From positions 12,646,501 through 12,710,500 of the forward strand of contig NC_089735.1 of the NCBI RefSeq assembly GCF_035083965.1: a stretch of 64,000 nucleotides of DNA. The letters are read 5' to 3'. The DNA is from Branchiostoma lanceolatum. Lineage: Eukaryota; Chordata; Leptocardii; Amphioxiformes; Branchiostomatidae. The notes below the pieces were generated by a model that made no database searches, was not told the origin of the DNA, and worked only from the letters and a program-made list of their open reading frames with translations. This document shows positions 16,582 to 42,824 of this stretch, piece after piece. The position numbers and the translations under genes were made by a program. Every line of letters starts with the position of its first letter. Position 1 is the first letter of the stretch.

Positions 16582-17092
16582 TTCTCATGAGAAGTCACTA
16601 ATACCTCCCCCTGGCCTGCCTAGCGCCGAAAGCTTGTCTGAGGTCGTACCACGGTGTATCCTGTTCTAGCTCGGCGGGACTTTCGACGGAGAACGGTTCT
16701 TTCCACGGGTTTCTATGGGGATAACATGACATCACGCAATGTTTTGCCAGGGTCCGCCTTGTTCAATGTACAGTTTGGGTATTTCCACCGCGTGAGTCAT
16801 GACCCTGCGAAACTGAAAGCTGTAACTTCCCGTTTTTCAGATTACACAATAGGGGGCGGGACTTTCCAGAATCCAGGGTTATGATACTGAGTGAGAGGGT
16901 TTCTTGGATGTCACTAGAATCCCCACGGTTTCGGTGCAAGTGAATCACTGGAAATCACCGTGACGCCACATTTGAAAAATTCCCCTTTTCAAAATCGCCA
17001 TTTGCTACTAGTGTTGGCGTTTACTTTTGGAGGTAGTACACCGCTTCTCAGTTCTGTGAGCCAGGTGGCCTGTGAGGTGTCTCCAGACGACA
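16582..17092. promoter_or_regulatory. Shared divergent promoter of gene A and P1
   Basis: The start codons of gene A (minus, 16581) and P1 (plus, 17093) are 511 bp apart, so their promoters must overlap or be shared. Motifs that can be read directly: AP-1 type TGAGTCA (16793-16799), interferon-response type GAAACTGAAAG (16809-16819), canonical kappaB GGGACTTTCC (16858-16867), and a decayed GGAAATCACCGTGACG block (from 16950). The order AP-1, GAAANNGAAA, kappaB is kept upstream of P2 at 23564-23667. Motif identity is certain as sequence; factor binding is inferred. Confidence 0.65.
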
Positions 17093-20000
17093 ATGCCTAC
17101 CCGCTACGTTCTGAAGATTCCCTGCCCTATCACGGGATGCGCCGGACAGTAAGTACACCTAAACTACACATATGGCGCTGCTCTGCTAGGCGTAGCCTGG
17201 AAACCATATATACATACCATCGGGGGCTCCCCGATATCTCTACGGTGCTGGGAGTGATGCCCGCCCGCCCAGACAGCTTAGCCCGCTCGGGGACCGGTGT
17301 GGGTTTACGGCCTTGGATTAAGTTAGTTCCCCCCCCCCCTAGGATGGCGGCGGAACTCTTTATTGCAGCTAAAGTAGAAAGGCTGCGAAATTCTATATGG
17401 CAGCTAAGTAGACAGGCTGACAGAAACAGCTCAATAAAGCAGACTGGGCCCGGTAAAACACCCCTATATACTAAGCCGACCCCTAGAGACTCTAGAGACT
17501 GGGACCAGGCTATACTAGGCGCGTGGTGAATGTACATTAGGGCCGCATTCACTTGTTGTACACAATGCATGGCCCTTTATTGAAGAAGAAATATGCTTGT
17601 GTGCCGTGCAACAAGTAAATGCAGTCCTGTTAAGTCACCACGGCTATACAGCAAGGACAACTAGATTTCATTCTCGACGAGGCAACGGCTGTATGATTCT
17701 TCCCAACGGTGGCATGAAGCTAGCCTCTACCAGGCTCCGCGGATGGCTGGAAAAATAGTAGAAATTGGCCAAATAGAGTGAATAGTATGCTAAGGGAGTC
17801 GGCTACGGAGAGAGGGTCCAATATGCCAACTGTACCCCTATAGCAAACTAACCTCACTTTTATGTTTCTCTGTCTATTTGGCCAATTTCTACTCTTTCCA
17901 GCCGCCTCTGGAGCCTGGCATAGGCTAGCATGAAGCTAGGTTCCACTAATATAGGGCCTGTGACGTGCATGTATGTACAGGGGGAATGAATATCTGCTTT
18001 GTGCGGTCCCTCTTTTATTTCTGTTCCTGCCCCCTCGAATAAACTGTTCGCTTATATCCCATTTCCACTAGCGGCTGCTACCAATAAAAATTCGACTGCT
18101 CACTCAGTGAATTTCATAGACAAAGAACGAACCATTTTAAGTATTGTGTGTTTTGTTGTTGTTCCATCGTGCGTGATATTCTAATTATAAAAGTAAGTGT
18201 GACACAAACCCAACTAGAGTTAAGTATTTGTGCTACATATACTTCAGGTTTGCTATGTTAATTCAACGATTACGGAGTCTTTTCATAAATATGAATTGGT
18301 ATTGAATGTTTCTTTTTATTTGAGTTGAAGTTGTGTGCTGATTTGTTTAAAAAAAAGAGAGAACGCTATGATTTTTCCTCAAAACATCTGTTTGGAAACT
18401 AGCAAGAAAAAACACCCCTCCCTCAAAATGGTCACACCCAACATTAGCGACCCAAAAAAACATCCCTCCAAATAAAATTGGTATTGAATCCAATATGGTG
18501 ACCCTGTGACGTCACAATTCAAGATGGCGGCCACCAATCAAGCCAATGAACCCAACAAAGGTTTTGCTACGCAAACCTGCAATTTTGGGCACTCAAAAGT
18601 TGCTAAGCTAAGGGATCGCCGTCTAGTAGACTATGTACTATGTTTTTTATTTATCTATTCATTTATCAATCTTTAATGTAATTTCATTATTTCCCAGGTC
18701 CAAGCTCTCCCAATGGGTCTGCGCGAAAGACAACGGCACCATGTACGTAGATGAGGACGGCTTCCTGTCCTGTTACTCAAACAACCACCGCGCCAAGATC
18801 ATCTATTGGAAATTCGACTGTGGTGAGAGGGGCTCAGGGAGCAAGCACAACTACGAGCGATATGTGGTAAAACTTTATACTCATAACAAACACAAAACAA
18901 GAGTTCCACGACCTCATATCTCCATGAACGATTCTATTCATGCAAATGACTTACACATTTGCATAATATATGCTTGGTCATTAACGCATTTATCTAACTT
19001 ACACATGTTGCAATATTAACAGTCCTATAATTTTCCAATTAGATGAATTATGGTGTTTTTGCATTAATTATGCAAATTAGGAATCTATTTGCATAATTGG
19101 TATCTGTTGATGCTCCACTTTCCATAAACTACATGTTACATGTATTTGATGGAAAACACTGCAAATATAGATTTTCCTCATTAGCTATGCAAATTAAGTC
19201 ACAATTGGCATAATTTGCACTTCATTACGTATATCTCTGTCTAAGCTACCTTCATACTAAGAACCATGTTGACAGTCCTATAATTTTCCAATTAGATGAG
19301 AAATGGTGTTTTGAATCAATTATGCAAATTAGGAATTTATTTGCATAATTGGTATCTGTTGATGATCCACTTTCCATAAACTACATACGTTACATGTATT
19401 TGAGTCTGATAATGGAAAACACTGCAAATATAGATTTTCCTCATTAGCTATGCAAATTAAGTCCAAATTAGCATAATTTGCACTTCATTGTGTACATCTC
19501 TATCTTAGCTACCTGCATACTAAATATCAAGGAAATCCGTCGTTCCTTTGTTCAGTTATTTTCCTTAGAAGATTTTCACAAAAACGGCCCTGCAGTTCCA
19601 GAGGAAGCTGCTAGGGGGCCCAAACCTACACCACTTCTTTATTACATCACAAGCTATCTGCCACCCAAAAATCAAGACCACAGCACGTCCAGGTCATAAG
19701 ATACAAAAATTGAAGTTCTGCTGCAGTACCAAGGTCACATACCAGGGGGCCCAAAATCGACCTTGAACTTCGGCTTCACAACACCTGCCCATATACCAAA
19801 TATCATTGTAATCCATCAAGAGGTTTTTGAGTTATGCTTACTACAGTAGTGCGGAAACACAAACAAACACACAGACAAACAAACACACAGACAAACACAC
19901 CCAAAACTATATCTCCATTTTTCATGGAGATAATTAAAGTTACGTATTTGTGCTACATATACTTCAGGTTTGCTATGTTAGTTAAGCGATTACGGGGTAT

Positions 20001-20712
20001 TTTTATAGATATGAACTGGTATTGAATTTTTATTTTTATTTGAGCTGAATGTGTGATAGTTGTGTGCCGATTTCTTAAAAATAGAGAGAACGCTAAGGGA
20101 CCCCCAAAAAAACACCCCTTCCAATGACATGTTACGGCTACCCTGCGACATCACAAAATCAAGATGGCGGTCACCACACATACCAACGGATCCAACAAAG
20201 GTTTTGCCACGCAAACCTGAAATTGGCACAATGCGATACATAAGCATAATTATTGATATACGTATCATGAAGAATTGTACGGGTAGGGCCTAGGGGGGGA
20301 GGGGGTACAAAATTTATCGGCTGATTGTGACAATATTGAACCTTTTTTATCTAATTTCAAATCTCGTTATCCAGTCGGCAGACCTGGAAGGGTTCTCCCA
20401 CGCCATGGCCATCGGCCTGCCTCACCTGAAGGAAGCTGGAGCAGTCTGGGTCACCAAACTCATACAGAGCGTCGAGAAACAGTTTTTGTACGTATCTAAA
20501 TAACGTTTGCTGCATAACTTGCTTTTATCTAAGAAAAAAGACAAACTTGCTAGTATATAGGAAATATGAGCTGACTTCCATGGCGCAGTCTGATTTTATA
20601 GCCCTCTTCAATACCTGCAGTTATGTTGATCCTCTACGTATACAGCCAAAAAACGTTCTGCCATTGTGACTGACAGATTTCTTTATTTTTCTGCAGAAAC
20701 GGAGACTACTAG
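17093..20712 (+). CDS. P1: small cysteine-containing protein, four exons, 117 aa
   Basis: Exons: 17093-17148, 18698-18866, 20375-20487, 20697-20712, total 354 nt, all GT-AG. It starts MPTRYVLKIPCPITGC, so the first exon gives a C-x4-C pair. Exon 2 adds three more cysteines within WVCA, FLSC and FDCG, around the block NGTMYVDEDGFLSC and KIIYWKFDCG, then SGSKHNYER. Exon 3 is a helical tail, SADLEGFSHAMAIGLPHLKE and so on, ending KQF; exon 4 adds LNGDY-stop. The spaced cysteines suggest a small metal-binding fold, but this is inference. No signal peptide or membrane segment. P2 and P3 share exon structure, phases and residues. I do not know the family. Introns carry MITEs and CRE repeats, and a LINE fragment starts about 20 bp after the stop. 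Confidence 0.82.
17193..17512. mobile_element. TAGCCT-family MITE, P1 intron 1
   Basis: A 320-bp element starting TAGCCTGG and ending CCAGGCTA, flanked by 9-bp direct repeats TGCTAGGCG and TACTAGGCG (8 of 9 identical). It overlaps an open frame on each strand that has no gene-like features. Similar termini and 9-bp duplications occur at 17721-17927, 28854-28965 and 34111-34327. Confidence 0.75.
17721..17927. mobile_element. TAGCCT-family MITE with long inverted arms, P1 intron 1
   Basis: A 207-bp element beginning TAGCCTCTACCAGGCTCC and ending in the inverted counterpart GGAGCCTGGCATAGGCTA. Inner arms such as AGTAGAAATTGGCCAAATAG also pair with the right side. It is flanked by perfect 9-bp duplications GCATGAAGC (17712-17720, 17928-17936). 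Non-coding; the perfect duplication suggests a fairly recent insertion. Confidence 0.82.
18214..18586 (+). mobile_element. CRE/YY1-bearing repeat, copy b (longest)
   Basis: Runs from CTAGAGTTAAGTATTTGTGC through TTCAGGTTTGCTATGTTA to GCTACGCAAACCTG; the inner word CAGGTTTGC pairs with the terminal GCAAACCTG as a short inverted repeat. It contains TGACGTCA followed by CAAGATGGCGGCC, as in the other copies. It lies in P1 intron 1, about 110 bp before exon 2. Confidence 0.7.
18893..19940 (-). repeat. Long octamer-bearing interspersed repeat, P1 intron 2
   Basis: It begins with the word AGAGTTCCACGACCTCATAT, the reverse complement of the right end of the copies at 26325-28382 and 32585-33720, and ends near ATTTTTCATGGAGAT. 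The middle is a 250-bp direct duplication (19018-19258 and 19270-19520) containing several ATGCAAAT or ATTTGCAT octamers. The right half carries words such as CTGCAGTACCAAGGTC and GAGTTATGCTTAC that recur at 52730-53040. No coding frame; the transposition class is unknown. Confidence 0.65.
19935..20221 (+). mobile_element. CRE/YY1-bearing repeat, copy c
   Basis: Same repeat as 18214-18586, with CTTCAGGTTTGCTATGTTAG near the start and CACGCAAACCTG at the end. The CRE is decayed to GCGACATCAC, while AAGATGGCGG survives. It abuts the octamer-bearing repeat in P1 intron 2, about 150 bp before exon 3. Confidence 0.7.
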
Positions 20713-20732
20713 GGAGGGGCATTCGACGAAAA

Positions 20733-21153: not shown

Positions 21154-23559
21154 CCATACGCAAAGTGATATGTGCCCAGGACTAACGACAATATATACTT
21201 AAGCTAATTATGCATAGCAGTACCTAAAGCTGGATAGGGCCTAAACTTTTTTTCATTCCAGAGGATATTTGGATTGAAACTCTGTTCACCTTGTTGTTGT
21301 TCACTTTGTAAAGCAATAGTGCGATCGTATATGACAAAAATTATGCCAACTGACATTCTTCTCGACGTATGAAGTTTGCACTGTGTGGTTCGACTAATAA
21401 ATACAGTGTACGAGCTAAGACTGCTTAATGCAAAATGACTTGTTATCATTTTGTATATACTTATTTACACATGATTAAGATAAGAGAAGACATTATTTCG
21501 ATAGCTATGATGAGTTGGTCATGATAAAGATGTCTATCTGTACAATTAAAGTACGTTTATACGTTTGTTCTCCTGGAGCAAGTGTCTGTGACTTGTTTTG
21601 TGTCTCGGGCATTTATGACGTGTCGTAATATCTATTAGGGGGTGTCGGAGAGGGGTAGTATCTCTTATGGATGGACAGTAGTGCTCTGCAGACCAGATAT
21701 GTTACGTAGATATCTATACCGATAGCAAAGTAAAGAAAACAAGTTGTTAACGTCGGTTGTGATGTTTATCTACGTTGACAATAGCAACCCGGACTTCCTA
21801 ACAACAACGCGAAACATCTCTACTGTAATTTTTCTTGAGCTCCGACAATTTCCAACCGGATAATCTAACGTTACACTTTGTTTGTTTATTTGTTTGAGCC
21901 TTTGATAATTCCAGTTTAGTGGCTAACATTTGAATAGTTAGCGACTATCTGTACAAATAGCTTGGTGGCCAGGAGTAGCAAGGAAAAGTTATGACTCGAT
22001 GATTTCACCTATTGAATACCGGTTTGTACCACAAAGTAATATCGCAGTTAACATATTCAAAGTAATGTTACTCTTCACCGTTTGTGTTTGATTTGATTTA
22101 TTCATTTGCCTGTCAAAAAAAAGCCAGCCAGGGCTACCCAACTACAAAGGGCTAGCCCTGGTAACTATTTGTATTACACGAGCCAGTGAACTTTGACCTT
22201 TGACCGGGAAGCTACCACACCTGTGCCGTTTCAAGCGATTTAATTTTAGTTTGTGTGGGTGTTTGACCTTGCCACCTTTGAATTCTCAGTTGTTTTGTTA
22301 TTTTTGTACGTAGTGACAAGTGTGTGATCAAGAAGAGCATGAAAGGAAAAAGTTGAACACCAGATAATGATAACTGAAGGTATTTTCCATAGTGTCGGGA
22401 GTCTCAGGACACAGTCAACATGACACAGTGCACCAGTAAACACTGTTATCCAGCCGTCATCGTCGGACTACTTTCACTATTGAGGAGGCTAAAAAACTAC
22501 TCAGTGGTGGTAATTCCCATGATGCGATGTATACTTTTGCATATTTTTTTTATATTTTAATTGGAACGTGGTTTATCATCTTTATGGGTAATAACCATTG
22601 AAAATGCTCTGTGTCTTAGTTCTTTTCGTACATTTACAAATGTATATCTAAATAAAGGTGCATATATGGGAGTATATGAGACACAAATTCACGTTATATT
22701 TGTGTACTAAGATATTCTTACTGACTTAGAGTTTATATTTCTAATCCCAAAAAAAAACAATTATATAGTACCCAAGACATACTACTAGTATATTGGGTAC
22801 GTATTGACCAGGGGAGGGGGCATTATACATATATACATCGCCGATATATATAAACACTGGACACATAATAAAATTATCAAGGTACCTGGCAGCTAAAGCT
22901 ATTACACAAAACATGTCACAACACTTATGTATGAGTTCCTACATTATATCTTTCTACTAAGATGTTCTTACTGACTTGGAGTTTATATTTCTAATAAAGT
23001 TTTATGGTTTTTATACCATGCACATGACTATTTCTTTTCAAACATACTTTGTGACAATACAAAATACCTATAACAATAGAATGACACACCTGCATACATA
23101 ATCCACCATAAAAGACAGGCAACTTTTCAACATACCACATACCAAAATGGCTACTCAATTCCCACCTAGTCTTCTCATAAATAAATGATGGCCTGCCAAA
23201 AGCCAATCACTCATCGAGTGCAAGTCAATATAGACCATCGTCATTATTCACTTGTTTGGATATCCAGTATGAACAACACCAATTTACAGTGCCATAGACA
23301 TAATACATTAACACATGACCCACAACAACAACCGTCGCCATGGCAATGTCTTTTTTCCATTGCCAGTCTTGTTTCATTTGGATGCTTTATTTTGGTTAAC
23401 TTTATTCGTTTTACCGAGGACATTACATAATGTCTTTGGTTTTACTTCTTAAGTTCGAATTTCATACAGGTCACAAGCTTTGAACGCACGTAACATATAC
23501 GTTGTGATAATACCAACGCCCTTTTGTAACACGTAGCTAACGTTGCATTCAAGTTCTTT
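21154..23559. other. Intergenic between P1 and P2
   Basis: No gene seen. It contains a LINE-type tail on the minus strand at 22084-22170 (CCAGGGCTA and GGGCTAGCCCTGG words), a decayed copy of the regulatory block (22436-22525), and a pair of direct repeats of about 60 bp (22685-22745 and 22938-22998) sharing TTCTTACTGACTT. No gene A-like partner for P2 was found on the minus strand here. Confidence 0.5.
22436..22525 (+). promoter_or_regulatory. Decayed copy of the AP-1/kappaB block
   Basis: Carries ACTTTCACTATTGAG and then GGTAATTCCCATGATG (from 22509), matching the block at 30370, 31385 and 36478 (GGAAATTCCCGTGATG) with changes. It lies about 1.3 kb upstream of P2. The resemblance is clear, but the kappaB-like core is degraded and it may be a relic. 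Confidence 0.5.
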
Positions 23560-23700
23560 CGCGTGAGTCATGCGCCTGCGAAACTGAAAGTTTGAGTAAT
23601 GAGGGGATTCCTGATATGGCACTAAAACCACCGAAGTCCCGATAACACTGACTCACTAGGAATCCCCGTGACAGCACATAAAAAATCCCCTTTTCATAAT
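23560..23700 (+). promoter_or_regulatory. P2 promoter module with AP-1, GAAANNGAAA and kappaB-like sites
   Basis: Direct reading gives TGAGTCA (23564-23570), GAAACTGAAAG (23580-23590), GGGGATTCCT (23603-23612), a second AP-1 TGACTCA (23649-23655) and GGAATCCCC followed by GTGACAGCA (23659-23676). The order and spacing of the first two match the A/P1 promoter (16793, 16809) almost base for base, and a CCCCTTTTCA word follows both. It lies 90-230 bp above the P2 start codon. Binding is inferred. Confidence 0.68.
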
Positions 23701-23789: not shown

Positions 23790-25139
23790 ATGCCTACCCG
23801 CTACGCGTTGAAGGTTCCCTGTCCTGTCACGGGATGCTCGGGGCAGTAAGTACAACCTAAATTACACTTTACCAAGTGACGTTAGAGTAATATGTTGCTA
23901 CCAGACAGTGGCTGTGAAGTGGTCATACATGCCAGGGCTACTATGATGTTGTTTTTGTGCCGTTCCATTCATATTCATAGTCAGAGTAACAAAACGTCAC
24001 TGCCCAGCCCCTCCCAAAAAATAGAGGGGGGCTGCTAGAACCGTTATCGAGTCAGACTACATTTAATTTCTGTCGATAGAAGATAATGTCTAAAATGAAA
24101 CTCCATTCTAACAAACGCTCACACACTGTTTGTTCCCTAATATTAATCACCATATGTCCACTCCATTGTTCAGTTTAATCGGTTAGTGCGTGCTATAAAC
24201 ATTGAATTGTGGTTGTAGGAACCGGTTAATCTCCGGATGGGTCTGTAATGCAGACAACGGCACCATGTACGTGGATGAGGACGGCTATCTGTCCTGTCAG
24301 ACAATGGCTCACCGCGACAAAATCATCTACTGGAAGTTCGACTGTGGCGAGAGGGACCCAGGGAGCAAACACAACTACGAAAGATGGCAGGTAAACTTCA
24401 TAGACACAGTAGAAAATAAATTCAAACCTGTAAACCAACATGGTATGTGAAAATATGATTTCTAAACAGGATCGGAGAGATGTCGTTTAAGGAGTTGGAC
24501 GATTATCTTTTGTGAACAAATACTGGTGACCAAATGATGTAGCGCACAAAGTGATATAACGTTAGTAAAAAAACAGTTAACATTTTCCCCCTTTTTATTT
24601 AGTCGGCAGATCTGGAAGGATTCATGCACGCCATGTCCATCGGTCTGCCTCACCTGAAGGAAGCCGGAGCAGTCTGGGTCACCAAACTCATACAAAGCGT
24701 AGACAAACAATTCAAGTACGTATTTCTGTATCATTAATCGCATTCTGTGTCAAAATTACAGAATTATCATGTGTCTAGCTAGCATTTGACAACTTACCTA
24801 AATATGATAAGATGATAAAACTTTCGTTGACATATGATCACACTCTCTAGATTCAAACGAAATACATAGCTATCTAAAATATAGCTTCTCTATCGATTAT
24901 ATGTCGATTTATATGCAATTCCATCATACTGTCCCAACAGATAGTCGTCTCACTAACGATGACAAATATTTTTTGACCACCAAGTTCAAAATGGTGAAAG
25001 GGTAGCGGAAATTGCAATGCACCTTATGTATATATTTTAGGCCTCTGAAATTGTGAACACAATACGAGTGCGTACAGTAATAATACAACCGATTTACCAT
25101 CGTGACTGACTGATTTCCTTACTTTCTTACAGAGGATGA
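23790..25139 (+). CDS. P2: small cysteine-containing protein, four exons, 115 aa
   Basis: Exons: 23790-23845, 24219-24390, 24603-24715, 25133-25139, total 348 nt, all GT-AG with the same phases as P1. It starts MPTRYALKVPCPVTGCSGQ. Exon 2 reads NRLISGWVCNADNGTMYVDE, GYLSCQTMAHR, KIIYWKFDCGERDPGSKHNY. Exon 3 differs from P1 exon 3 at three of 37 codons (SADLEGFMHAMSIGLPHLKE), so P1 and P2 are the closest pair in the cluster. The last exon adds only KG-stop. Cysteines are conserved with P1 and P3. No gene A-type partner lies upstream. An AATAAA at 25839-25844 is a plausible poly(A) signal. Function unknown. Confidence 0.83.
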
Positions 25140-29476: not shown

Positions 29477-30189
29477 TTAAAGTAAACAATGCTGTGCAAA
29501 ATCCACCACTTAACCTTTGACCGGTAAGGCTCCGGTTATATATAGCCGAACATGGCCTCCCGATCTTCCCTCAATCATGGGGGTGGTTCGGGACGCTTGG
29601 TCGACTGGTGTTCGGCACGGTTGGCCGATGTTCGGCTAGGCTAGCCGAAAAACGGATTAATGTTTTGAAATTTTCAAAACAAGTTCGGTTGTGGACAGGA
29701 GTTCTGGAATGGGTTAGCTGGTGGTTGGGAGTACGCCAGTAGTGGTCAGGGCCTTTTAGGGAGGCAAATTTGACTCTTAACCTAAAAGATGGCTTGTATG
29801 CCTTTTTCCGTTAAGCGTTATGCGCTATTTTAATTCACCGTTAATCATAGCCGGCCCGCTCCAAAATTCAACGTTAAACGTTATCGATATATTAATCGTG
29901 AAGCGTTACTGGTCGTTTCAATTCTACGTAGCGCGTTATTTGTCATCCTGAATTTTGAGTAATTCCTCGTTACGCAGGAAATAGCGTTTCAGCGGGTCAA
30001 GATTTCAAAATATTCTCTTAACTAATCGCACTAGTGTCATTTTAAGGACAAATGAGCTAGAATTCTGTGTCGTTACGTTGATTTATTAAACATGTATTGG
30101 CTTTTTTCTCTAGCGACTTCTTGGTTACATTTTTTAAAGCAGTGACAGATGAACAAAAAACGTTGAGATAAAAAAGCGGAACTCTAGAC

Positions 30190-30470
30190 AGTAGACAATA
30201 ATAGCGCTCACACAATGCCATGCAGGACCGTAGTCAGGGCATAATCAACATGACCCAGGGAGTCAGTAAACACTATTGTGGACCCGTCACGGTGGTTTCC
30301 ACTGACTCATACACGAACAGCTTTCACTATCACTATTCGGAAGGCTTGCAAGCCACCTACATGAGAAGTGGAAATTCCCGTGATGTAATATGTTGTGACG
30401 AAGGGCAGTTGAAGTATACAGATACAGATCATTTGTACAAAGGAAATGTAGTAGCTGTACAAAAACAATG
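30190..30470 (+). promoter_or_regulatory. Regulatory block, upstream copy 1 of the alpha-kinase
   Basis: Contains AP-1 TGACTCA (30303-30309), CTTTCACTATCAC and a palindromic kappaB site GGAAATTCCC followed by GTGATG (30370-30385). The whole 280-bp segment is repeated about 1 kb downstream (31180-31470) with small differences. An apparent 100-codon frame across it is not conserved in the second copy, which favours a regulatory over a coding role. Confidence 0.55.
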
Positions 30471-30582
30471 GGCCGGTTTACACGAGTCACTTACGACGTG
30501 TGTCCTAGGTCAAATGTCCTAGGACAAGTGTCGCAGGACAGTTTTTATTTAGTAAAAACTCTGTGCCTCGTGTAAACCGGCC
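30471..30582. mobile_element. Small MITE with GGCCGGTTTACACGAG ends
   Basis: A 112-bp unit whose ends, GGCCGGTTTACACGAG and CTCGTGTAAACCGGCC, are perfect inverted repeats of 16 bp. Inside, AGTGTCGCAGGACA and TGTCCTAGG words recur. It sits immediately after the first regulatory block and is absent at the equivalent place in the second, so it inserted after or at the edge of the duplication. Confidence 0.72.
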
Positions 30583-31179
30583 AAATTAAAGACTGCTACA
30601 ATAAAAAAGTAAATGACTTCCGAACGTTCTGACTGTAATCAATAATTGATGCAGACACAGTGTAACGATTTTGAGAATTTTTTTCGACAGCTAGGATGAA
30701 AATCTCACTTGTTTAGGTAACAAACTGCGAAAGACACTAATAGCACCAGACGAAGAGAAAATGACTTAACCATGTTTATCGTCGTTAACATTAACTCGCG
30801 CGCATAGTTCGTGTACTCTAGCATATGGTACTAGTACTTCTCTCGTACACCCGGTACTCCTAGCGACAGGGATAGGCCATAACGTTACATATGCTATGTG
30901 GCCAAAGTTGAATGATATGTCAGCTATCAACGTCATCTCACTTAAAGTGTATTTTTTTAACCGTCAGACCACCGTTGCCATCGCAACGGTCGCTGTGACC
31001 TATGTTAAACTATGGGACTAGTTCGATTGGACCGAAAATCGCACACCCATCTGCTAAGGCTAAAACTAATTCCATATCACTTAAAGCGTTATACTAACAT
31101 AATTCCGGCGACTTCTTGGTTATAAATATATTGTTATTTTTTTGGAATCAGTGACAGGTCAACAAAAAAGGTTGAGGTG

Positions 31180-31470
31180 AAAAAGCGGGACTCCAGACAG
31201 CAATAGCGCACGGGGCTCACACAGCGTCGGAACCGCCTGAGTCAGGACACAATCAACATGACTCAGGGAGTCAGTAAACACTATTGTGGACCCGTCACGG
31301 TCGAGTTTCCACTGCACTGACGCATACCCGAACAACTTTCACTATCATTACTGAGAAGGCTTGCAAGCCACCTACATGAGAAGTGGAAATTCCCGTGATG
31401 TAACATGTTACGACGAAGGGCAATTGAAGTACACAGTACACAGATACAGATCATTTCTGCAAAGGAAAAT
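31180..31470 (+). promoter_or_regulatory. Regulatory block, upstream copy 2 of the alpha-kinase
   Basis: Direct repeat of 30190-30470. The kappaB palindrome GGAAATTCCC with GTGATG is intact (31385-31400), while the AP-1 core has become TGACGCA. It lies about 690 bp upstream of the alpha-kinase start codon. Confidence 0.55.
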
Positions 31471-31850
31471 GTACATTATGTAGTCTTTTAAAAGAGCAAC
31501 ATAAACCTCCCGCCCTTGTCTGATTGGAGTTGATGCTAGAAATTCCATGCCGTGAGGTTTATCATAAAAACACTCCTTTCATCTGCTGTACAGAGGTACG
31601 AGATCGTACCGAAAAATTAGAGAAGATGACTATGGGTTGGTTTCACAACACTTGGCTGTACAGTACAACTTGCATTTTCAGTACGTAGGAACACGCACTG
31701 AGTATGGTGTGTCGTTCTGCGTAGATACAATCTTATTTAGCGTGATTAGAAAGCAAATCTAATAGCTGAAAGCAAAGAAATAGAATGCATCTATTATGCA
31801 GTAGCCTACAATAAATGATATTTGCTCGCTAAAGAGAAGCCTATCTAGGT

Positions 31851-31945
31851 ATAAGAGGGAATTTCCACATACGTAGTTCCGTCGACCCTAACTGAATTGA
31901 AACGCTATAAAATCATGCGAACGTCACCCTGTATGGATCACCCAG
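31851..31945 (+). promoter_or_regulatory. Core promoter of the alpha-kinase gene: kappaB site and TATA box
   Basis: GGGAATTTCC (31857-31866), a canonical kappaB sequence, is followed 40 bp later by TATAAAA (31906-31912). Transcription would then start near 31937, giving a 5' leader of about 140 nt before the ATG at 32078. A GAATTGAAACGC word (from 31893) lies between them and weakly resembles an interferon-response half-site. The core layout is direct; regulation is inferred. Confidence 0.6.
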
Positions 31946-32077: not shown

Positions 32078-35000
32078 ATGTCGGGACCGATGGTTTATGT
32101 CACAACCAAGACTTACGACGTCGCCACCAACCGTTGGGGCGAGCGGCCCACCATCCTGTCCATGGACGCCCGTCCGTTCGGAGAGGGCGGCATGAGGAGA
32201 GCTTACAGCGCCAAGGACTGGGGCATTCTCAAGTCGTCCTGTCAGCCCAAGGTGGTGAAACTACAGATACACAAACGCTACACCAAGGCAGAGGCAGAAG
32301 CAGACGTCAAGATGCAGATGAAGTGTGTGGCTCTTGCCGAAGAATATAACAGCCACAGTTGCATACCCAAGAAGGTAGGCCTTTTTTTGTTCCCCTAAAC
32401 TTTTACCCTGTTTTGCAAGAGCTTGGATGACACAACAAACGCATGGTATCAGTTGTATGATCTAACTGTTACAATATCTCTGCAACAAGCTCTACTACTA
32501 TATAATCTTCTGAAATAGATGACAATCACAACAAATCTTAGAGTGAGACAGACGCATCCCTAACTAGAATGGCCACATATTGCCATTACCTTCGCCGAGA
32601 AGGTTATGCAGAGGACAGCGTTTGTTTGTGTGTTTGTTTGTAACGTACAGCATAACTCGAGAAGGCTTGGATGGATTGTCTTTATATTTGGTAGGTGGGT
32701 AGGTCTTGATGAGACATGGAAATGATTAGATTTTGGGTCCCCTAGCGGCTTGTTACGGTTCTGCAGCGGAACTTCCTGTTTTGATATCTCGTGTTCTGGA
32801 CATGCTATGGTCCTGATTTTTGAGTGGTAGATAGCTCTTTGGACAGAGAGTAAGTGGTATAGGTTTGGGCCCCCTAGCGGGTTTTTTGGAACTGCAGGAG
32901 CAGGTTTTCCTTCAGACTTTGAAAGGTAATAACTCAAAAAGGGCTTGATGGATGGTAATGATTTTTGGTAAGTAGATAACTTGAGTGATGATGTACATGA
33001 TTAGATACTTATTATGCAAATCAACATCTAATTTGCATAATTAATGAGGAAAGTTTATACAGCCGCCAAATTCCATGATAGGACTCTCAAACATGTAACA
33101 TATGTAACTGAAGAAGAGAGAAATGTTAATAGATATCAACTATGCAAATGAGGACCTCATTTGCATAATTAATGAGAAAATACTATAACTCAAGATGGGC
33201 TTGATGGATGGTAATGATTTCTGGTATGTACATAACTTACGTGATACTTTGTATGATTGGACGATAATCATGCAAATCAGATTCTAATTTGCATAATTAA
33301 TGAGACAATTTTAAAAGACCGTTGTGTTCTTTGAAATGACTATTCAAATATGTGACATTTGTAACTGAGGAATGTTGATAGATAGAACATATGCAATTGT
33401 AGGCCTAATTTGCATAATTAATGAGAAACTACTAGTATTCCATACAGGTAAATGATGGCAATTTCATACTTGTGGCATTTGGAAGTTATGTGAATGTGAA
33501 CATCATTGAATCAAATTATGCTAATAAGGAGCTCAATTGCATAATTGATTATATGTGTTTGCATGACCTTTTTAAGCTCATACTTTGGACAACTTCTGTT
33601 ATTTGGGTGAAGACAATGGACTGGTATGATTTATAATTGATGAGAAACACTCCTAATACGTCAGTCATCATAAAGGTTAAAATCATTTGGCGAAGGTATG
33701 AGGTCGTGGAACTCTAGTTGTTTTATTCATTCACCCTGTTTCTTACAATTAGCCTCCGGGCAAGAATTTGCAATAAAACCATTACTATCTAACAACAGCT
33801 GACCGAAACTGTCTCTTGTCTGTCCAGGTCTCGTTCTGCAGCGCCCAGTTGGTTCAGTTCCACGCGGGGCCGTACAAAGGGCAGTACGGCCTGATGGAGG
33901 ACTACATACCAGGCACTTTCGAGAAACACAACCTTAACTTCCCCATGAGACCTCTCTCCACCCGCAACACCCCACAGGCCTTCTCACACTTCACGTTCGA
34001 GCGGACAGACGGCAGGATGGTGGTGTGTGACGTACAGGGTGTGGGAGACCAATACACGGACCCACAGGTAAAGGCGTTGTTTTATCGACTATCTAGAACC
34101 CAGCTAGACGTAGCCTGGGTGCCAGACCACCGCGCTCCTGGCGCTAATCCTTCGGCCGGGGAAGCAACTCGCGCCGCCGCCACAGACAGCACACGGCCCA
34201 CTAGCGCGATAGAAATCAGGGTTCGGCTGCCAAGCGCTCCCGGGTGCCAACTCTATCCCTACTACTAGGTCTTCCCGCCCAAAAGGGCTTATCATCGCAT
34301 CGCGCGAAAGGTCTGGTATCCAGGCTAAGCTAGACGCAGTGGTCACTAGTACATCTGTACCTATTACCGCTTCCCCCACTGACTACAAAATGTTTTTTTT
34401 TATATGGAAACTAGAAACAACAATTGCGATAGATTGGAAAACAATGAAGCAGAGCTTATCATCCTCGTGTATTTATATCAAACAGTGTCAATTGGTACTT
34501 GGTACAAAAATCTGGAGAAATTATTCATAACAGTTTCATAAACATTGTACATTGAATAAAATAGAAGACGAATGTCATTTTGTGGTAGAATGTGGATTAT
34601 ATACCAAAGAAAGAAATGAACTGTTTAAGCTTGTAGAAAAACTATTTCCCTACTTCAGGCATTTAAGTATTGTTCAAAAATTCATATTTCTAATGCGACT
34701 AGACAAACCTCCCATTGAAAAACACGTCTGTTCTTTTATATCTACTATAACCAAAAAGCGAGGAGAAGTAGAATTTATCTAATGATAGTCATATTCTTTT
34801 ATATCTGTTAACTGTACTTGTATTTTGTTTTGTTGTGACCTGACCAAGTGTGGCAGAAATGTGCAATAAAGGTCTTCATTCATTCATATCAGTTCAAATG
34901 TGTATTTTGTTTCGCATTTTCAGATCCACTGCATGGACGCCGGCCTGCAGTACGGACAGGGGGACTTTGGCGCGCACGGAATCATCTCGTTTGTCAGCAA

Positions 35001-35118
35001 CCACAGGTGTAACTCCATCTGCCGGGCCCTGAAGCTCACCCCGATCCAGGAGTTACCGCACCACTGGGGCTCCCCGCCCGGCAAGGCAGCTACAGCCCCC
35101 GTACCGCGGTATTACTGA
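32078..35118 (+). CDS. Stand-alone alpha-kinase, three exons, 243 aa
   Basis: Exons: 32078-32374, 33828-34067, 34924-35118, all phase 0. The protein is an atypical (alpha) protein kinase, the family of eEF2K, TRPM6/7 and ALPK1-3, which phosphorylates Ser/Thr. Visible motifs, in order: glycine-rich ARPFGEGGMRRAY (about residues 28-40), the putative ATP lysine in KVVKL (about 58-62), EDYIPGTFEKHN, FSHFTFER, the catalytic-loop block VCDVQGVGDQYTDPQIHC, then GDFGAHG and the zinc cluster NHRCNSIC. The usual GNLG reads GDFG here. At 243 residues it is little more than the catalytic domain, with no regulatory extension or membrane segment. The start is the first ATG after a TATA box. ALPK1 is an innate sensor kinase in vertebrates; an immune role here is inference. 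Introns carry the octamer repeat, a MITE and a LINE fragment. Confidence 0.92.
32585..33720 (+). repeat. Long octamer-bearing interspersed repeat, alpha-kinase intron 1
   Basis: Starts TACCTTCGCCGAGAAGGTTA and ends GGCGAAGGTATGAGGTCGTG, then GAACTCTAG. Between are repeated modules, and from 32990 to 33450 at least seven ATGCAAAT/ATTTGCAT octamers (for example near 33014, 33031, 33141, 33160, 33269, 33286, 33410). It fills most of the 1.45-kb intron. Same family as 26325-28382 and 18893-19940. Confidence 0.65.
34111..34327. mobile_element. TAGCCT-family MITE, alpha-kinase intron 2
   Basis: A 217-bp element starting TAGCCTGGGTGCCAGACC and ending GGTCTGGTATCCAGGCTA, flanked by perfect 9-bp duplications AGCTAGACG (34102-34110, 34328-34336). 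GC-rich and non-coding, although it extends an open frame from exon 2. It lies 43 bp after the exon 2 donor. Confidence 0.85.
34530..34890 (+). mobile_element. LINE 3' fragment, alpha-kinase intron 2
   Basis: The plus frame 34552-34782 reads IEDECHFVVECGLYTKERNE, the H...C...R pattern that ends many LINE ORF2 proteins. It is followed by a short 3' UTR and a tail GCAATAAAGGTC with ATTC units, typical of CR1/L2-like 3' ends. The 5' part with the reverse transcriptase is missing. It ends about 35 bp before the exon 3 acceptor. Confidence 0.72.
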
Positions 35119-36100: not shown

Positions 36101-36383
36101 TGCTGAAAATATAGCACAGGCAGCAGAATTCAAAACATGCATGTACTGATACGTGCCATTGTCAAACGGGGCGTCCCAAAATGACTCACCTTTCCATCAA
36201 CATGATAGTGTTATTTTCAACCTTCGCCCGTTGTGTAACACGCCAAATGACCTTTATTCCGCTAGATTAAACAAACATAACGACCTCGGGCGTTATTCTT
36301 TATCATAAATGTGTGATTAAGATTTTGTGAAGGCCTGGTCAACAACTCTCCGCCACTAGACAGTAAACAATGTTATCGATCTA

Positions 36384-36500
36384 ACCAAGGAGGTTGATCT
36401 AACCGTCACGGTGGTTCCCGCTGACTCATACCCGGACTGCTTTCACTATTGAGAAGTGATGCAAACTATTCAGGGTCGGAAATCCCCGTGATGACATGTT
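36384..36500 (+). promoter_or_regulatory. Further copy of the AP-1/kappaB block
   Basis: Reads TGACTCA (36422-36428), CTTTCACTATTGAG and GGAAATCCCC followed by GTGATGACA (36478-36496), with a sequence match to the blocks at 30190 and 31180. No gene start follows it closely on the plus strand; gene B ends 1.1 kb to the right on the other strand. It may be a relic promoter of a lost gene copy. Confidence 0.5.
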
Positions 36501-37598
36501 TAATAAACTTATCACAGACATAGAGAGGAACGGCTAAATCAGACAGAAATCTAGCGTGGCAAGCTGAGACTATTTTGACAACTTTAGGGGGTAGGATTCT
36601 TCCTGAGGACAAGAAGGGTGACACAGCTTTTTGTGGAACTTCTACTGACAAAATGCCAGCTGTTATTTCAAAACTACCCGTATATCCGTTAATAAACCAC
36701 TTTCAAAGTCCCAAACACTCGTGCACACAAGCCGTACAGTATTCAGCACAATATGTACGACGGTAACTACGGCATTTTTAATCAAACCAGTCTTGCCTAG
36801 TTCTTTTAATTATTCACCGTACAGTTTCGTACCGCGAAATCCGCCACATGGTACGACGTTACATGGTACGAGGGCCTCACCAAGAAATAAGGTGCACAAC
36901 TCAAATTTCGGGGAAATATGTAATGTTTTATCAATATCCGCCTGATTTTAAATCATTGTGGTCACTACTTAACAGTCGACGTCCTTTTCAGTTTTGAATG
37001 CCAGTATGGAAGTGGGAGTGTATTGCATGTTGTGTATGCAGTGGGATTGGGGATATTTGTTGACCTCGCGATAGAAATATTGTGCGGTTGTAAGCTATCG
37101 TTGTATAGATAAATACCATTGATTAAAACTACAACAAAAGATCTGAATACAATATGTGGTTTATTCATTGTCGCAAACCTCACATTAAGAATCCTTCATT
37201 TTTTCACACACAACGAAGTGCGAGTACCACAAATATATTTTAGGAACATGCAAATGATATATTTCCTGCTCAGATTACTTACGCGCCACGGTAATGCAAG
37301 CTTGCCTGTGGAAGTCATGCTATGTAACTACCAAGGAATATCTAATTATCAAATTCACGCAGTGTTGAATCTAATTGTTATATTCTTTTCTATTTCTGCT
37401 TGTAGTAATACATTTCAAGCATCACTTAAAACACGTATTCAATACAATTTTACCAGGTGGTGTATACAGTAGCACTGAACAGTTACGATTGAGACAACTG
37501 GTGTTTTGATAACATTTTCTGATAGACTCAGATCTGTTAGCAAAGCATAACTGCATAACTCATATAACGTTATGTGTTTACAACATAGTTCACTGGTT

Positions 37599-40500
37599 TT
37601 AGCGCAGGTCTGACTCAAAGTGTTCACGCAGGTGTGGGTTCACATCAACAAGTCGCTGTGCACCTGGAAAATGAAAAAAAAAATAGATAAGAATATGGCG
37701 CATTTGCGTCTGTACAAGAGAAACAGAATTAACATAGATACGATAAATGACGTCATTTTATAACTAGTGTAGATGATGATGATGCACGTCGACTTCAGTA
37801 AAGCCAAACATTTTCTTCCAGCTTTCATTTTCAAACACTAACAAGTCTAAGACATCCAATATTCCTGCCTGACTTGAAACGTTATAGGCTCGAGGGAAGA
37901 AACAAAATGGCTAATCAGAAAGGGACGCTTTTAGTAGCAGGGATAATATCTCACCGTGTATCTCTGGCACTGGCCCGCTGCGAATCTTGGGGCACTGGGC
38001 CTTCTTGTTGGGGTCGTCGTGGAACTGTTTGTCCTGCTCGGCACCGTAGTGTTGTCCCCTCTGTAGGGCTTGCACACCGCCCATCACCGCCTCTTCACCC
38101 GCGGGCCCGGTACTAAGGAATACAACACACAAATATTATGTTTAAACTCTTGTGATATACGCGTACATGTTGTTATATGTAAAAATCAGGGAACTTTAAA
38201 AAATTTCAACAAGTACTGAGCATGGCAATATCATATCTTTCTGACGTAATTTGTCAGCTGTCAGACTCGACATGCTTGAGATTTTGAATATTGAATTGCA
38301 TGCTTAGTCTCTATAGTAGGCTCTCTGGACATTCGGCGGGGCTTAAAATACAATTTTTGCTGATGACTTCTTTTTGTACTGGGTCGTTTGTGCAGTCAGC
38401 CAGTATTACCATTGGGCCCAGAGAGCCTGCTATATCGATCGAGGCTATTGCCGAATGCTCACCTTTCTTCCCACTGAGTCGGCACCTGCAGTTTAGTTCC
38501 CCCAGTCAAAAGGATCTCAACTACTTGGGAGGCGTACGCGTCTGCCAGTCCCTTCTTCAGACCCTGTAAAGAAAGACAAGATTTACTTTTTAATCATATC
38601 TTCTTCAGTGTCATTCATTTATTCTACACAGACATAGTGTTAGACATTTGTACGTTTTACAATTCTTCACATGCTAAGTAATCAGATACGGGCTAGTGAC
38701 GTGAGAGTATACGAAAAAAAAATTTCCCCACATAAATAAGATTATATGCACATCGTACCTGCTTTTCTCTTGCGGCCACCCAACCCAGGGTCTTGTCCAC
38801 GAGTTCCTTACGGGTCTGATCACGGATCTCAGGCGGGCAGAAGCGCAGCTGGGCCTGAAGGCAGACCAGCTCGGCCTCGACGATCGCCTTCACCTGTCAA
38901 AAGAACGCATCCTACTACAATTTTTCTTCATGCTTGGGATTCATCTTTTAGATCCATGGTTTAATCTTTCAAAGGGACAGAATCAAGTCCTACTATGAAA
39001 ATTTTAGAAAAAAGGGTGCAAGGTAGTGTACAATTTTAAAAGCGTCAGAATGAAAGTTAGGCAAAATAATTCTGCATCACTCACATCACGCCTTGTCTTC
39101 TGTGACTGGTCAGGCAGCTTAATGTCGGAGCGCCCAGGACCACGTTTGTTCTTCGAAACCCCATTCTTTTTGCCATGTTGCCCCTTGCCCTGTTTGCCAT
39201 TCTCTGCTTGACCGGGTCCATGGTGAGACTTCGTGCGCCAAGGATCCTGCTGCTGTTCCATCATCTCGTGCTGTGGGCCTGCTGTCTCGCGAGACTTGGG
39301 CTTCCCATCATCTTTGTCTTTGAAGCCCTCGGGTCCGGCCGGGTCGTCGAAGTCCTCAAATTCCTCCAGCATGCCGATGGTGGTAGCGTAAACATCGTAA
39401 ACCATCTGCTTGCTCGCTAGAAATACAAAGGAAATGTTCTGCTCATTGTCGTTGTTCTTGTCAAGAAACAACTTCGCCAAAAGCATCCTTATGTCACCCT
39501 CCTAAAAGCAGGACCCCTATCGCTCGATTCGTTGGCTCGTTCGCGTATGGGCCCTGCTCTTAAGCCCCAGTAGACACGGTTCTGGCGACGTTACTGACAG
39601 TTGCTCATGAGTAATCAATGAGCTATCCTTATTTGGCACAATTTGGCGGTTAATTTGTTCTGAACCTAAAGTAACGATGTTAGACGTAACCTGATTGGTT
39701 GATAGCTTCCCCGCGTCCTTTGCGCCTTTGCTCTAGATGAGGTTTAGCAAACCCTCTGATTGGCTGAAGCAGTTTTGGTGGCGACGTCGCCAGAACCGTG
39801 TCTACCGCGGCCTTGTGTCTGATTTTCTGTTTCTGTACTACATACAGCAGTAAAGGACGAGCGATAAAAAAAACATTTTCACTCTCTCAATGCTGGGTAG
39901 GTTAGAAATTCTATGTTGTTCTTGTCCATCTTCTTGGACCACGCCTCCCACTAAACCTGGGGAATTGCATGATGATTACATACCCTGAAGGGAGCGATGC
40001 CGTTGCTCTTTTATCTGCATCTCACGCAGTTCCATCTCTCGCTGGTGGTCGTAGCCGTGTTGGCCGTGGAACACACCGCCTGGCTGTTCATGGTACGCCG
40101 CCGAGTTGTTGTGACGACCGCCTTGTCGGGACCCATAGCTTTGCTGGGGAGGCGGGAATGGCCGAGGTTATAGTAAGTTCAGTGTATCTTGAACATTGGG
40201 GACGCTAAAGCACACTGTTGGACAGATTTGCCTATCATTTATACGGTGGCAAATTTCTAGACCAGGAATATGAAGCAGCGATTTTGCTGTAGTATACGCA
40301 CACCCGGCAAAACTTAGAAGGGATAAAAGACTTCCGGGTCCATTTAAAAAGCCTCTTCTCCACCAAGGATGGGTTTTGAAAAAAGTGCAAAAAATGTTGG
40401 TACTTAATTAAAGGGTTTGCGGGTCAATAGAAATGTCTCGTCAGAAAATGGGAGGAATACAATTCCCCGCTTGGAGATATAAATATAGATATCGAGTCAT

Positions 40501-42116
40501 GGATGATGACCGAAATACCACAGAATATGTCTGCCGTTTCCAAAAGAATTCTTCGGACAAAGTGCACTCTAGTCCCCGAACACTAAAATCCTAATACCTG
40601 TCCGTGTTGGTTGTGGTGATGACCAGTTGTCATATGAGCACCAGACTGCCCCTGGTTTCTCAGGTGGTTGTCACGGCCGTGCTGCCCCGGACCACCGTAG
40701 CTACCTCCCGATGTCCCTCGGTCATAGCCCGGCTGTTGGTATTGATCATATCAAAGCAAAAACATAGTAGGTTATGTACATTCAGTTGCCACGTCTCAGA
40801 ATTTCTTTAATTAATCTATTACATAGAGTGGTCATTCTGTTCCAGCATCTACGTATGTAAGTGTTCTACAAGACTCGACGAAAATGACAAGTTAAAATAT
40901 ATAGTGAAGATATGTAGAGGGAGTCTTTACTTACTAGAGAAGGGCTGAGCAACAGATTTGTTGGTGGAGAAGTGAGCAAGAAAGTTGCGTGGAATAAATA
41001 TTCAACACTGGCTTGAGAAATACGCGCGAGAGAATGGTTGGATATGGGGCAGCTCGAGTATAGCAAAATGAAAGTGAAAGCATTTACTCTGTGCAGCCTC
41101 CGTACAATTAAGGAATAAAACTATCTAAGCGACTACTCGTGGGCTAGTCTGTATATAACGCAAACTCCAGCTGTCCGGGGATTTCTGTCCCCTCCCCGCG
41201 GTTACAGGACGGCAAGCCGTTACAGGAGCTTGATTGAGTTCAGGCTACTCGTGGGCTAAGTGCAAATGTTATGTATGATATTTCAATAGAATGCCCTGCC
41301 TGGACATTACCCGATAAATATCGATATCGAGTCATGCATAATGAACGAAAGACCACAGAATATATGAAAAATATTTTGCGGACAAACCGCAATCTAGCAA
41401 CCCCCCCTCCCCCCCCCCCCCCCCTCACTAAAATCCTAATACCTGGCCGTGTTGGTGGTGATGACCAGTTGTTACGTGAGCACCAGACTGCCCCTGGTTT
41501 CTCAGGTGGTTATCGCGGCCGTGCTGCCCCGGACCACCGTAGCTACCTCCCGATGTCCCTCGGTCATAGCCCGGCTGCTGGCCGCCTCCGTACTTCTGGT
41601 CGTCCGGGCGGTATTGTTGGTCAGAGGAGGCATCCGTGTCCATGTCCTCGGGATATTCGTTTCCCTGGTTACCTGAAAAACGCAGAGTGGCGTTCATTCT
41701 AATTCTGCAATCATTTTCAAGCCTGCGGTGTGGAGGATTGGTCAAGTTATAATTTTAATGACAAATTATAGCATAACCAATTCTGAAAGTGGCGTGGGGT
41801 TGGTCTCATGAGTCATGACAGTGCGAAATACTTCAAATAGAAGAATTTGGTCTTGGCTTGATTAATTGATATAAACAGCAGTGACAAAAAAAACTACGTG
41901 GGAATACAGAGTCTAAAATCGTACACATAATTTAAGCTCCAACACATTTGTAATGCCATGGGAATAAAGGTTTGATACACTTCACTCACTTAAATCGTAC
42001 ACATAATTCATGCTCAACACACATATGTAATGCCATGGGAATAAAGGTTTGATACACTTACCCTTGGTGAATAAATTTGTCACTGCTTCTTTTCCCTTGG
42101 TGAAAAATTGAGCCAT
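37599..42116 (-). CDS. Gene B: uncharacterised Gly/His/Gln-rich protein, nine exons, 456 aa
   Basis: Exons (minus): 42116-42062, 41672-41443, 40732-40598, 40143-39984, 39416-39085, 38893-38759, 38563-38463, 38112-37955, 37663-37599; total 1371 nt, all GT-AG. It starts MAQFFTKGKEAVTNLFTK. Residues 19-193 are Gly/Gln/His/Tyr-rich and probably disordered. From ASKQMVYDVY (194) it aligns with gene A through LPDQSQKTRRD, LVCLQAQLRFCPPEIRDQTR (314-333), PAGEEAVMGGVQALQ and RLVDVNPHLREHFESDLR-stop. The linker (about 210-285) is highly charged. The exons at 41443-41672 and 40598-40732 share a near-identical 45-residue segment (PGYDRGTSGGSYGGPGQHGR and on), an in-frame exon duplication. It is divergent from P3. 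Family and function are not recognised. Confidence 0.84.
38310..38445. mobile_element. MITE-like inverted repeat, gene B intron
   Basis: Ends read ATAGTAGGCTCTCTGG on the left and CCAGAGAGCCTGCTAT on the right, an imperfect inverted repeat of 16 bp, about 130 bp in total. It lies just after the exon at 38463-38563 in transcription order. Non-coding. Confidence 0.55.
39503..39813. mobile_element. Long-TIR MITE (CAGGACCC family), copy 1, gene B intron
   Basis: Begins AAGCAGGACCCCTATCGCTC and contains ATTTGGCGGTTAATTTGTTC and CTGATTGG (CCAAT) words found in the copies at 45964-46307 and 50822-51112. The right terminal repeat is cut short compared with the full copy. Confidence 0.7.
41917..42060. 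repeat. Tandem duplication next to the gene B exon 1 donor
   Basis: Two units of about 72 bp sharing GCCATGGGAATAAAGGTTTG and ATACACTT; the second ends exactly at the splice donor of exon 1 (intron begins at 42061). A mutation-level duplication of intron start sequence, possibly regulatory. No coding content. Confidence 0.75.
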
Positions 42117-42824
42117 TGTTCAGACTGGACTTGGACAGTAAGTGTTAGCTAGTATTGCACCAGTACCGGTGTAGCTGTGTTCGTGCGCAGTTATGGCACG
42201 GAACTGACTGGTATACCCTGGTATCGGCGTGTGACTCAGCCTGTGATTATCATACGTCGGGACTTTTCCATACGTAACCACTTGGAACATCACGTGATCA
42301 TCTGGGGGGTTTCCGTGAGAGCGGAACGGTAAACAAAACATATCCCCTGGTTTGCCAAACTGTTTGCGTTGCAAAACTACTGCTGTACACCCACTTTGGA
42401 GGCTCTCAAACCGTTCTTTATAAAAATATCAAAAATAGAATAGTCAGCTTTTTATTCGTTATCCTAGCAGGTACCCAAAATTGACTAAAAGAGGCTTCTT
42501 GGAAATATATGTAGGGCGGGAAAATCCCACTGTCACTGGAGCTTTTTGAAAAATGAGCTGAGGAAGTGAAACTTACTTCTGCGTACTCAGTGCCTTATAA
42601 GGGATCGAAACTACAGGGCTTTCTTTTTCGAACGAAGCTTTTTATAGAAGTGATAGCACGTAGCACGATCGCGACTACTGAGAAACCCACGCCATGACAT
42701 GGCTGATTTATGCAAATTACTATAGGAGCATTGACTTCCTAGTGGAGTTTAGGACTCCCTGTTGTGAACGGTTTTTAAGTTCTGTTGAGAACGTTGTTGC
42801 ACACATACTTTAGTGACACCGAAC
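42117..42824. promoter_or_regulatory. Shared divergent promoter of gene B and P3
   Basis: The 708 bp between the start codons of gene B and P3 contain GGGACTTTTCC (42259-42269, kappaB-like), GGAAAATCCC (42519-42528, canonical kappaB), GGAAGTGAAACT (42562-42573, an ETS/IRF or interferon-response composite) and a TATA-like TTATAAGGG (42595-42603) facing P3. The factor classes match those at the A/P1 and P2 promoters, but the arrangement differs. Motifs are direct readings; function is inferred. Confidence 0.65.

Follow-up and report, generated by a model that had tools for sequence, protein, structure and literature searches.

The question raised by this locus is whether the promoters of a gene cluster around positions 16582-42824 share a signature of AP-1, interferon-stimulated response element (ISRE) and kappaB sites, the three types of site through which vertebrates turn on their virus-response genes. 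The DNA analysed, referred to below as the window, is a 64-kb, intron-containing stretch that is animal by inference and probably invertebrate. The cluster contains at least six genes: the plus-strand paralogues P1, P2 and P3, the minus-strand paralogues A and B, which stand head-to-head with P1 and P3, respectively, and an alpha-kinase gene, PK. Gene starts and splice sites are predictions read from the sequence. That the cluster promoters have an immune-type motif signature in common, as an earlier note on this DNA had claimed, is statistically supported by the number of promoters carrying each motif class, with or without P2, and by a ranking of 30 consensuses. As motif statistics the signature holds; as spacing conservation it is weaker than claimed. 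We consider it moderately likely that the cluster promoters are inducible through interferon regulatory factors (IRF), Rel/NF-kappaB and basic leucine zipper (bZIP; AP-1) factors, and that they would be switched on jointly by infection or stress.

All the motifs quoted in the earlier note were found where it had placed them. TGAGTCA occurs at 16793 and 23564, and GAAACTGAAAG at 16809 and 23580, its sole two copies in the window on either strand. At B/P3 the quoted sites GGGACTTTTCC (42259), GGAAAATCCC (42519) and GGAAGTGAAACT (42562) are likewise present. The last of these is an IRF/ETS-like site of 11 bp, and both it and the P2 kappaB site fall outside the strict patterns. The sites of the four promoters (A/P1, P2, PK and B/P3) are as follows.

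16789..16820, plus strand: A/P1 shared block, AP-1 TGAGTCA (16793) and ISRE GAAACTGAAAGC (16809); best 31-mer match to P2 29/31.
16858..16867, plus strand: A/P1 kappaB GGGACTTTCC, overlapping the GC box GGGCGGGA (16854); P2 lacks a counterpart.
23560..23591, plus strand: P2 shared block, AP-1 (23564) and ISRE GAAACTGAAAGT (23580).
23603..23612, plus strand: P2 kappaB-like GGGGATTCCT, which departs from the kappaB pattern by one base; the P1 site is not its homologue.
23649..23668, plus strand: P2 second AP-1 TGACTCA and kappaB-like GGAATCCCCG; degenerate P1 counterpart at 16941.
31857..31866, plus strand: PK promoter kappaB GGGAATTTCC, its start 49 bp ahead of that of TATAAAA (31906).
42232..42314, plus strand: B/P3 first group, AP-1 (42232), one-mismatch kappaB GGGACTTTTCC (42259) and strict kappaB GGGGGTTTCC (42305).
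42514..42573, plus strand: B/P3 second group, GGGCGGGA (42514) overlapping strict kappaB GGAAAATCCC (42519), then GGAAGTGAAACT (42562).

In order to compare these sites with chance, the patterns GGGRNNYYCC (kappaB), GAAANNGAAA (ISRE) and GAAASYGAAASY (12-bp IRF site) were counted together with AP-1 against 400 dinucleotide shuffles (4-kb blocks), 300 order-3 Markov sequences and control motifs built in a like manner. Relative to the dinucleotide shuffles, the window has 19 AP-1 sites (9.6 expected), 17 matches to GAAANNGAAA (4.2 expected), 21 to GGGRNNYYCC (6.2 expected) and 3 to GAAASYGAAASY (0.15 expected); two AP-1 sites lie within 30 bp of an ISRE, compared with 0.03 such pairs expected. 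The corresponding order-3 expectations are 8.0 for AP-1, 6.2 for ISRE and 7.2 for kappaB, and none of the 300 sequences reaches the observed number for any of the three. The observed count of GAAASYGAAASY is reached in 1/300 of them; at least one AP-1/ISRE pair appears in 13/300 and two pairs in none. Control motifs with an equal or larger ratio of observed to expected numbered 1/23 for AP-1, 1/31 for ISRE, 4/400 for kappaB and 0/43 for the 12-bp IRF site. Median control ratios above 1 (1.20 for ISRE and 1.39 for kappaB) suggest that the order-1 null is somewhat lenient. The earlier note had proposed a comparison of motif density with a shuffled background; the density exceeds that of the shuffles, and the claim survives this comparison.

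The excess was then measured at the promoters themselves. Nine of the 12 possible promoter-by-class incidences are filled, compared with a mean of 0.72 and a maximum of 4 in 2000 permuted trios of motifs. Leaving P2 out, 7/9 are filled (0.63 expected), a value reached by 0/2000 permuted trios. In shuffles of A/P1 the three classes are found jointly with a frequency of 0.0005, and in shuffles of B/P3 with one of 0.00025. When 30 consensuses were ranked at the four promoters, IRF, ISRE, kappaB and AP-1 were the most enriched, setting aside the post hoc GGGCGGGA. Ten IRF sites in the window have no more than one mismatch, and five of these are in the four promoters and the four copies of a dispersed element described below; A/P1, P2 and B/P3 have one each and PK has none. 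The single control interval taken outside the cluster, upstream of a putative 2-oxoglutarate (2OG)-oxygenase gene, contains no AP-1, ISRE/IRF or kappaB site. Inside 16582-42824 lie 13/19 AP-1 sites (P 0.015), 9/17 ISRE (0.22) and 15/20 kappaB sites (0.002); for the last count 20 of the 21 matches were kept, one of two overlapping matches (17223) being dropped.

How much of the signature is independent depends on the history of P1 and P2. Their promoters align along the proximal length, and upstream of the AP-1/ISRE block there is no significant similarity between them (P 0.13). Fourfold-degenerate sites of the P1 and P2 coding exons are identical in 28/35 cases, and the 7/35 differences point to a recent tandem duplication. 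The earlier note had described the three sites of A/P1 and P2 as being in the same order with near-identical spacing. The order AP-1, ISRE, kappaB is indeed common to both, and AP-1 and ISRE are 16 bp apart (start to start) in each. P1 places kappaB 49 bp after ISRE and P2 places it 23 bp after, and the two kappaB sites are not homologues. When the promoters are aligned, the P1 kappaB sits in a stretch that is absent from P2, and the P2 site at 23603 aligns to a non-kappaB stretch near 16895 of P1; blastn (16892-17169 against 23600-23867) agrees. Since the promoters are homologous by duplication and the kappaB sites are unaligned, we rejected the spacing of the trio as a sign of selection. The order and the AP-1/ISRE spacing were instead inherited in one event, and the kappaB sites have turned over. 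Identity in the AP-1/ISRE block is 29/31 (28/31 in the column window of the simulation described below) versus 74% in the remaining aligned promoter, a difference that is suggestive but, as described below, within expectation.

B/P3 serves as the main independent support for the shared signature. The similarity of the P3 promoter to those of P1 and P2 is not significant (P 0.50 and 0.37, respectively), and it has the same motif classes in a different order. The best local alignment of P2 and P3 falls on the IRF-type sites of both (starts 23570 and 42553) and is not significant. None of the pairs P1-P3, P2-P3, P1-PK, P2-PK and P3-PK reached significance in 200 mononucleotide shuffles each (P 0.14-0.90), and homology of the P3, PK and P1/P2 promoters was rejected on these five results. 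A weak P1/PK alignment (16777-16830 with 31857-31911; P 0.14, not significant) places a kappaB-like site, a broken AP-1 site and an ISRE-like site in the same order. The PK promoter is an addition to the earlier note, whose text omits it. It has two kappaB matches compared with 0.03 expected in shuffles of the same promoter (P 0.0015), the second being GGGACGTCCC at 31960, downstream of the TATA match.

The box GGGCGGGA occurs at 16854, 31508 and 42514, that is, in three of the four promoters and as three of the six copies in the window, and it overlaps kappaB in A/P1 and B/P3. This distribution would fit an explanation in which the sites function in constitutive, stress or cell-cycle control, with bZIP stress factors at TGAGTCA, Sp/KLF or E2F factors at GGGCGGGA(AA), and repressors (PRDM1, for example) or ETS factors at the GAAA/GGAA sites. 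The P3 copy reads GGGCGGGAAA, which is E2F-like, and GGAAGTGAAACT fits an ETS/IRF composite. However, GGGCGGGA was picked post hoc, and the explanation leaves unaccounted for the strict kappaB sites at three promoters and the full 12-bp IRF sites at two. We regard it as decidedly improbable.

The same motif types are found in a dispersed element that has four copies within about 14 kb, each with a GGAAATTCCCGTGATG-like sequence.

22243..22599, plus strand: copy c22k, kappaB-like GGTAATTCCC; AP-1 region missing.
30100..30504, plus strand: copy c30k, AP-1 (30303), IRF-like GCTTTCACTATC (30320, one mismatch), kappaB GGAAATTCCC (30370).
31099..31513, plus strand: copy c31k, AP-1 (31238 and 31259), IRF-like (31335, one mismatch), kappaB (31385).
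36251..36560, plus strand: copy c36k, AP-1 (36422), kappaB GGAAATCCCC (36478).

The kappaB columns are conserved at 0.95, compared with a core average of 0.73; a kappaB site followed by GTGATG is the best conserved part of the element. A 7-bp indel between c30k and c31k suggests that the element is probably noncoding. It could be argued that this repeat spread the motif set, bringing AP-1, IRF-like and kappaB sites beside P2 and PK as distal enhancers. The number of copies and the strong conservation of kappaB are in line with such a role, as are the positions of c22k, about 1.2 kb ahead of the P2 ATG, and of c30k and c31k ahead of PK. On the other hand, c22k has no AP-1 site, and the proximal P1, P2 and P3 sites lie outside recognisable copies (nhmmer matches at P1 have E 0.25-0.49). 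The element is at most a candidate mobile element. Spread by the repeat is the least probable of the explanations considered, and we hold it to be very unlikely. Between c31k and c36k, at 35880-36100, is an inverted-repeat structure, perhaps a mobile element, with a palindrome that contains two kappaB matches (35898 and 35915). A separate dispersed repeat family (15478-15664, 20033-20224, 29196-29382 and 54167-54360) shows about 86-94% identity to its first copy and occurs in both orientations.

The genes that these promoters would serve are listed next.

16579..16581, minus strand: gene A proposed start codon, read by eye; a GTAAGT donor follows; inner exons paralogous to B.
17093..17148, plus strand: P1 exon 1, beginning MPTRYVLKIPCPITGCAG; further exons near 18.71 and 20.37 kb.
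23790..23845, plus strand: P2 exon 1, followed by exon 2 (near 24.22-24.39 kb) and by exon 3 (near 24.60-24.72 kb).
32078..35022, plus strand: PK alpha-kinase gene, with the domain (PF02816) spread over three exons; nearest solved chain eEF2K.
42114..42116, minus strand: gene B proposed start codon, read by eye; head-to-head with P3.
42825..42880, plus strand: P3 exon 1, followed by exon 2 (near 43.65-43.81 kb) and by exon 3 (near 44.66-44.77 kb).

The proposed start codons of A (16581) and P1 are 511 bp apart, and those of B (42116) and P3 are 708 bp apart. Since the proposed first exons of A and B are dissimilar, their start codons are less certain than the paralogous inner exons. The first exons of P1 (17093), P2 (23790) and P3 (42825) are alike, each ending in a GTAAGT donor, and exons 2 and 3 are common to the three genes. 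Compared with P1 and P2, P3 differs at 11/19 and 12/20 fourfold sites, figures that cover exons 1-2 only (207/324 nt) because exon 3 of P3 was missed by the script; P3 thus reads as an old paralogue. The P1-P3 proteins contain an N-terminal, cysteine-containing module, with module gene spans of 17093-20496 (P1), 23790-24720 (P2) and 42825-44780 (P3). Relatives of the module were sought in IMG/VR and GTDB contigs and none was confirmed; it is an unnamed domain.

PK lies between P2 and B, with its ATG at 32078. The protein, spliced by eye, matches PF02816 at 155 bits (curated cutoff 21.3) over profile positions 1-185, which is the whole profile, and it is accordingly assigned to the alpha-kinase family as a predicted member. 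Its closest PDB chain is eEF2K (4.9e-37), ALPK1 being far weaker (1.9e-7). We consider it less likely that P2 is a single long gene ending in the kinase, since an in-frame ATG and, upstream of it, a TATA match mark a probable separate start for PK. A literature search combining alpha-kinase with amphioxus or Branchiostoma returned, by title, only TRPM channels and ABCF ATPases, and an oyster search returned sponges; subscription literature was outside the search. Gene B has a Gly/Gln/His-rich stretch duplicated in tandem (40456-40739 and 41285-41581) and, in probably intronic positions, one complete 12-bp IRF site GAAAGTGAAAGC along with one AP-1 site (41070 and 41809). Two open frames at 51642-52640 and 47708-48037 (minus) have weak 2OG-Fe(II) oxygenase similarity, under the Pfam cutoffs. 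A scan of the window for tRNAs and Rfam families (gathering threshold) gave no match.

We next compared the arrangement with known regulatory elements. The IFNB1 enhancer has its sites in the order AP-1, IRF, kappaB, with several overlapping IRF sites at a fixed, tight spacing. A/P1 and P2 have the three types together in that order, with a strict kappaB in A/P1 and a one-mismatch kappaB in P2. Unlike IFNB1, each of these two promoters has one 12-bp IRF site instead of several overlapping ones, the gap between AP-1 and ISRE is 9 bp, the spacing from ISRE to kappaB is not fixed (49 and 23 bp), and no interferon gene was recognised in the window. In AP-1-IRF composite elements, AP-1 and GAAA are adjacent or about 4 bp apart; TGAGTCA and GAAA are separated by 9 bp in both P1 and P2, outside this arrangement. 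The ETS-IRF composite element has the consensus GGAANNGAAA, and GGAAGTGAAACT at 42562 in P3 agrees with it as a sequence match.

At the IFNB1 enhanceosome, ATF2/c-Jun, IRF3/7 and NF-kappaB act jointly (PMC13405385, preprint). TAP1 and LMP2 (PSMB9) are head-to-head genes with a common TATA-less GC-box promoter and an IRF1-binding site (PMC6504791). A/P1 resembles this pair in being head-to-head over 511 bp (starts read by eye), with a GGGCGGGA box, an ISRE and no match to the scanned TATA patterns; the genes are unrelated to TAP1/LMP2, and B/P3 does hold TATA-like matches. Amphioxus IRF1/8 and p65 are reported to act on or bind ISRE and kappaB motifs, and the amphioxus gsdme promoter has IRF1 and RelA motifs with reporter support, regulated by BbIRF1/8 and slightly by p65 (PMC10155998). 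The idea is thus not new at the level of the factors. The present promoters have the same IRF and Rel motif types, here from sequence alone; gsdme is a single gene whereas this is a cluster, and the available part of that source notes no AP-1 element for gsdme. IRFs are present in invertebrates without interferons, and invertebrate IRF1-like proteins retain GAAA-recognising elements (PMC7819612). In amphioxus treated with polyinosinic-polycytidylic acid, RNA-seq left interferon undetected and showed enrichment of NF-kappaB and RIG-I-like pathways (PMC5752451). An in silico study reported promoters in which IRF and NF-kappaB sites co-occur (PMC4430024). A search for amphioxus, ATAC-seq (chromatin accessibility sequencing) and NF-kappaB gave only off-topic titles, subscription literature being outside its reach.

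Several points weigh against inducible control through these sites. P2 has no strict kappaB, and PK has neither AP-1 nor IRF sites and has the second of its two kappaB matches downstream of TATA. The AP-1/ISRE block is not conserved beyond expectation: despite the 29/31 match of its 31-mer, a window that good arises in 19% of simulations at 74% background identity (P 0.19), and exceptional constraint on the block is not shown. Conservation within the dispersed element does not exceed that of the core for AP-1 (0.71) or for the IRF-like stretch (0.56), the latter value being dependent on where the aligner places CTTTCACTATT. The clustering inside 16582-42824 weakens once the repeats (the four element copies and one palindromic stretch) are dropped, to 9/15 for AP-1 (P 0.09), 9/17 for ISRE (0.18) and 10/15 for kappaB (0.03); loose IRF sites are then 4/4 (0.02). 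The patterns were partly set after the sites had been seen, and the loose IRF pattern GRAASYGAAASY was made broad enough to include the P3 site. Near 62.2 kb, away from any promoter identified here, there is a further trio of AP-1, ISRE and kappaB. The N-terminal module of P1-P3, with P2 as the query, has no Pfam match over the cutoff (best 11.7 bits; cutoff 27) and none in NCBIfam or the PDB, so an immune function of these proteins is unsupported. Binding and induction themselves are predictions from the sequence.

Some of these points would equally be expected if a fortuitous AP-1/ISRE pair had been copied with P1/P2 and the other sites were background or repeat-borne, picked after the fact. 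P1 and P2 are young duplicates, the conservation of their block is unremarkable, repeats hold part of the window-wide excess, and the trio near 62.2 kb is one more. Nevertheless, with P1/P2 counted once, A/P1, PK and B/P3 still fill seven of nine incidences and no permuted trio does so, and the order-3 nulls do not reproduce the counts. Chance with duplication is, in our judgement, unlikely, though it deserves more weight than the constitutive and repeat explanations.

We return to inducible control by IRF, Rel and bZIP factors. Pattern-recognition signalling would activate these factors, and we infer that they would bind the cluster promoters and turn the cluster on as one, with an immune role for its genes. 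The tandem duplication copied the P1/P2 arrangement, the kappaB sites turned over afterwards, and P3 and partly PK (kappaB only) retain the motif types in other arrangements. Because the motif types are kept in differing arrangements, flexible ('billboard') promoters fit better than a rigid enhanceosome. A broader proposal is that A, P1, P2, P3, B and the alpha-kinase form an invertebrate defence cluster, placed under common AP-1/IRF/NF-kappaB control before interferons, kept so through promoter turnover and reinforced by the portable duplicated AP-1/IRF-like/kappaB element (c22k, c30k, c31k and c36k); we regard this as possible and rather doubtful.

The signature is ordinary in kind and a good experimental lead. 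If the genes are induced via these sites, the cluster would provide a multi-promoter case that shows whether motif set, order or spacing is the part of the vertebrate virus-response code that existed in the absence of interferon. An unnamed gene family and an eEF2K-like kinase would then also gain a link to immunity that experiments can address. The series P1, P2 and P3 tells inheritance by duplication apart from selective maintenance.

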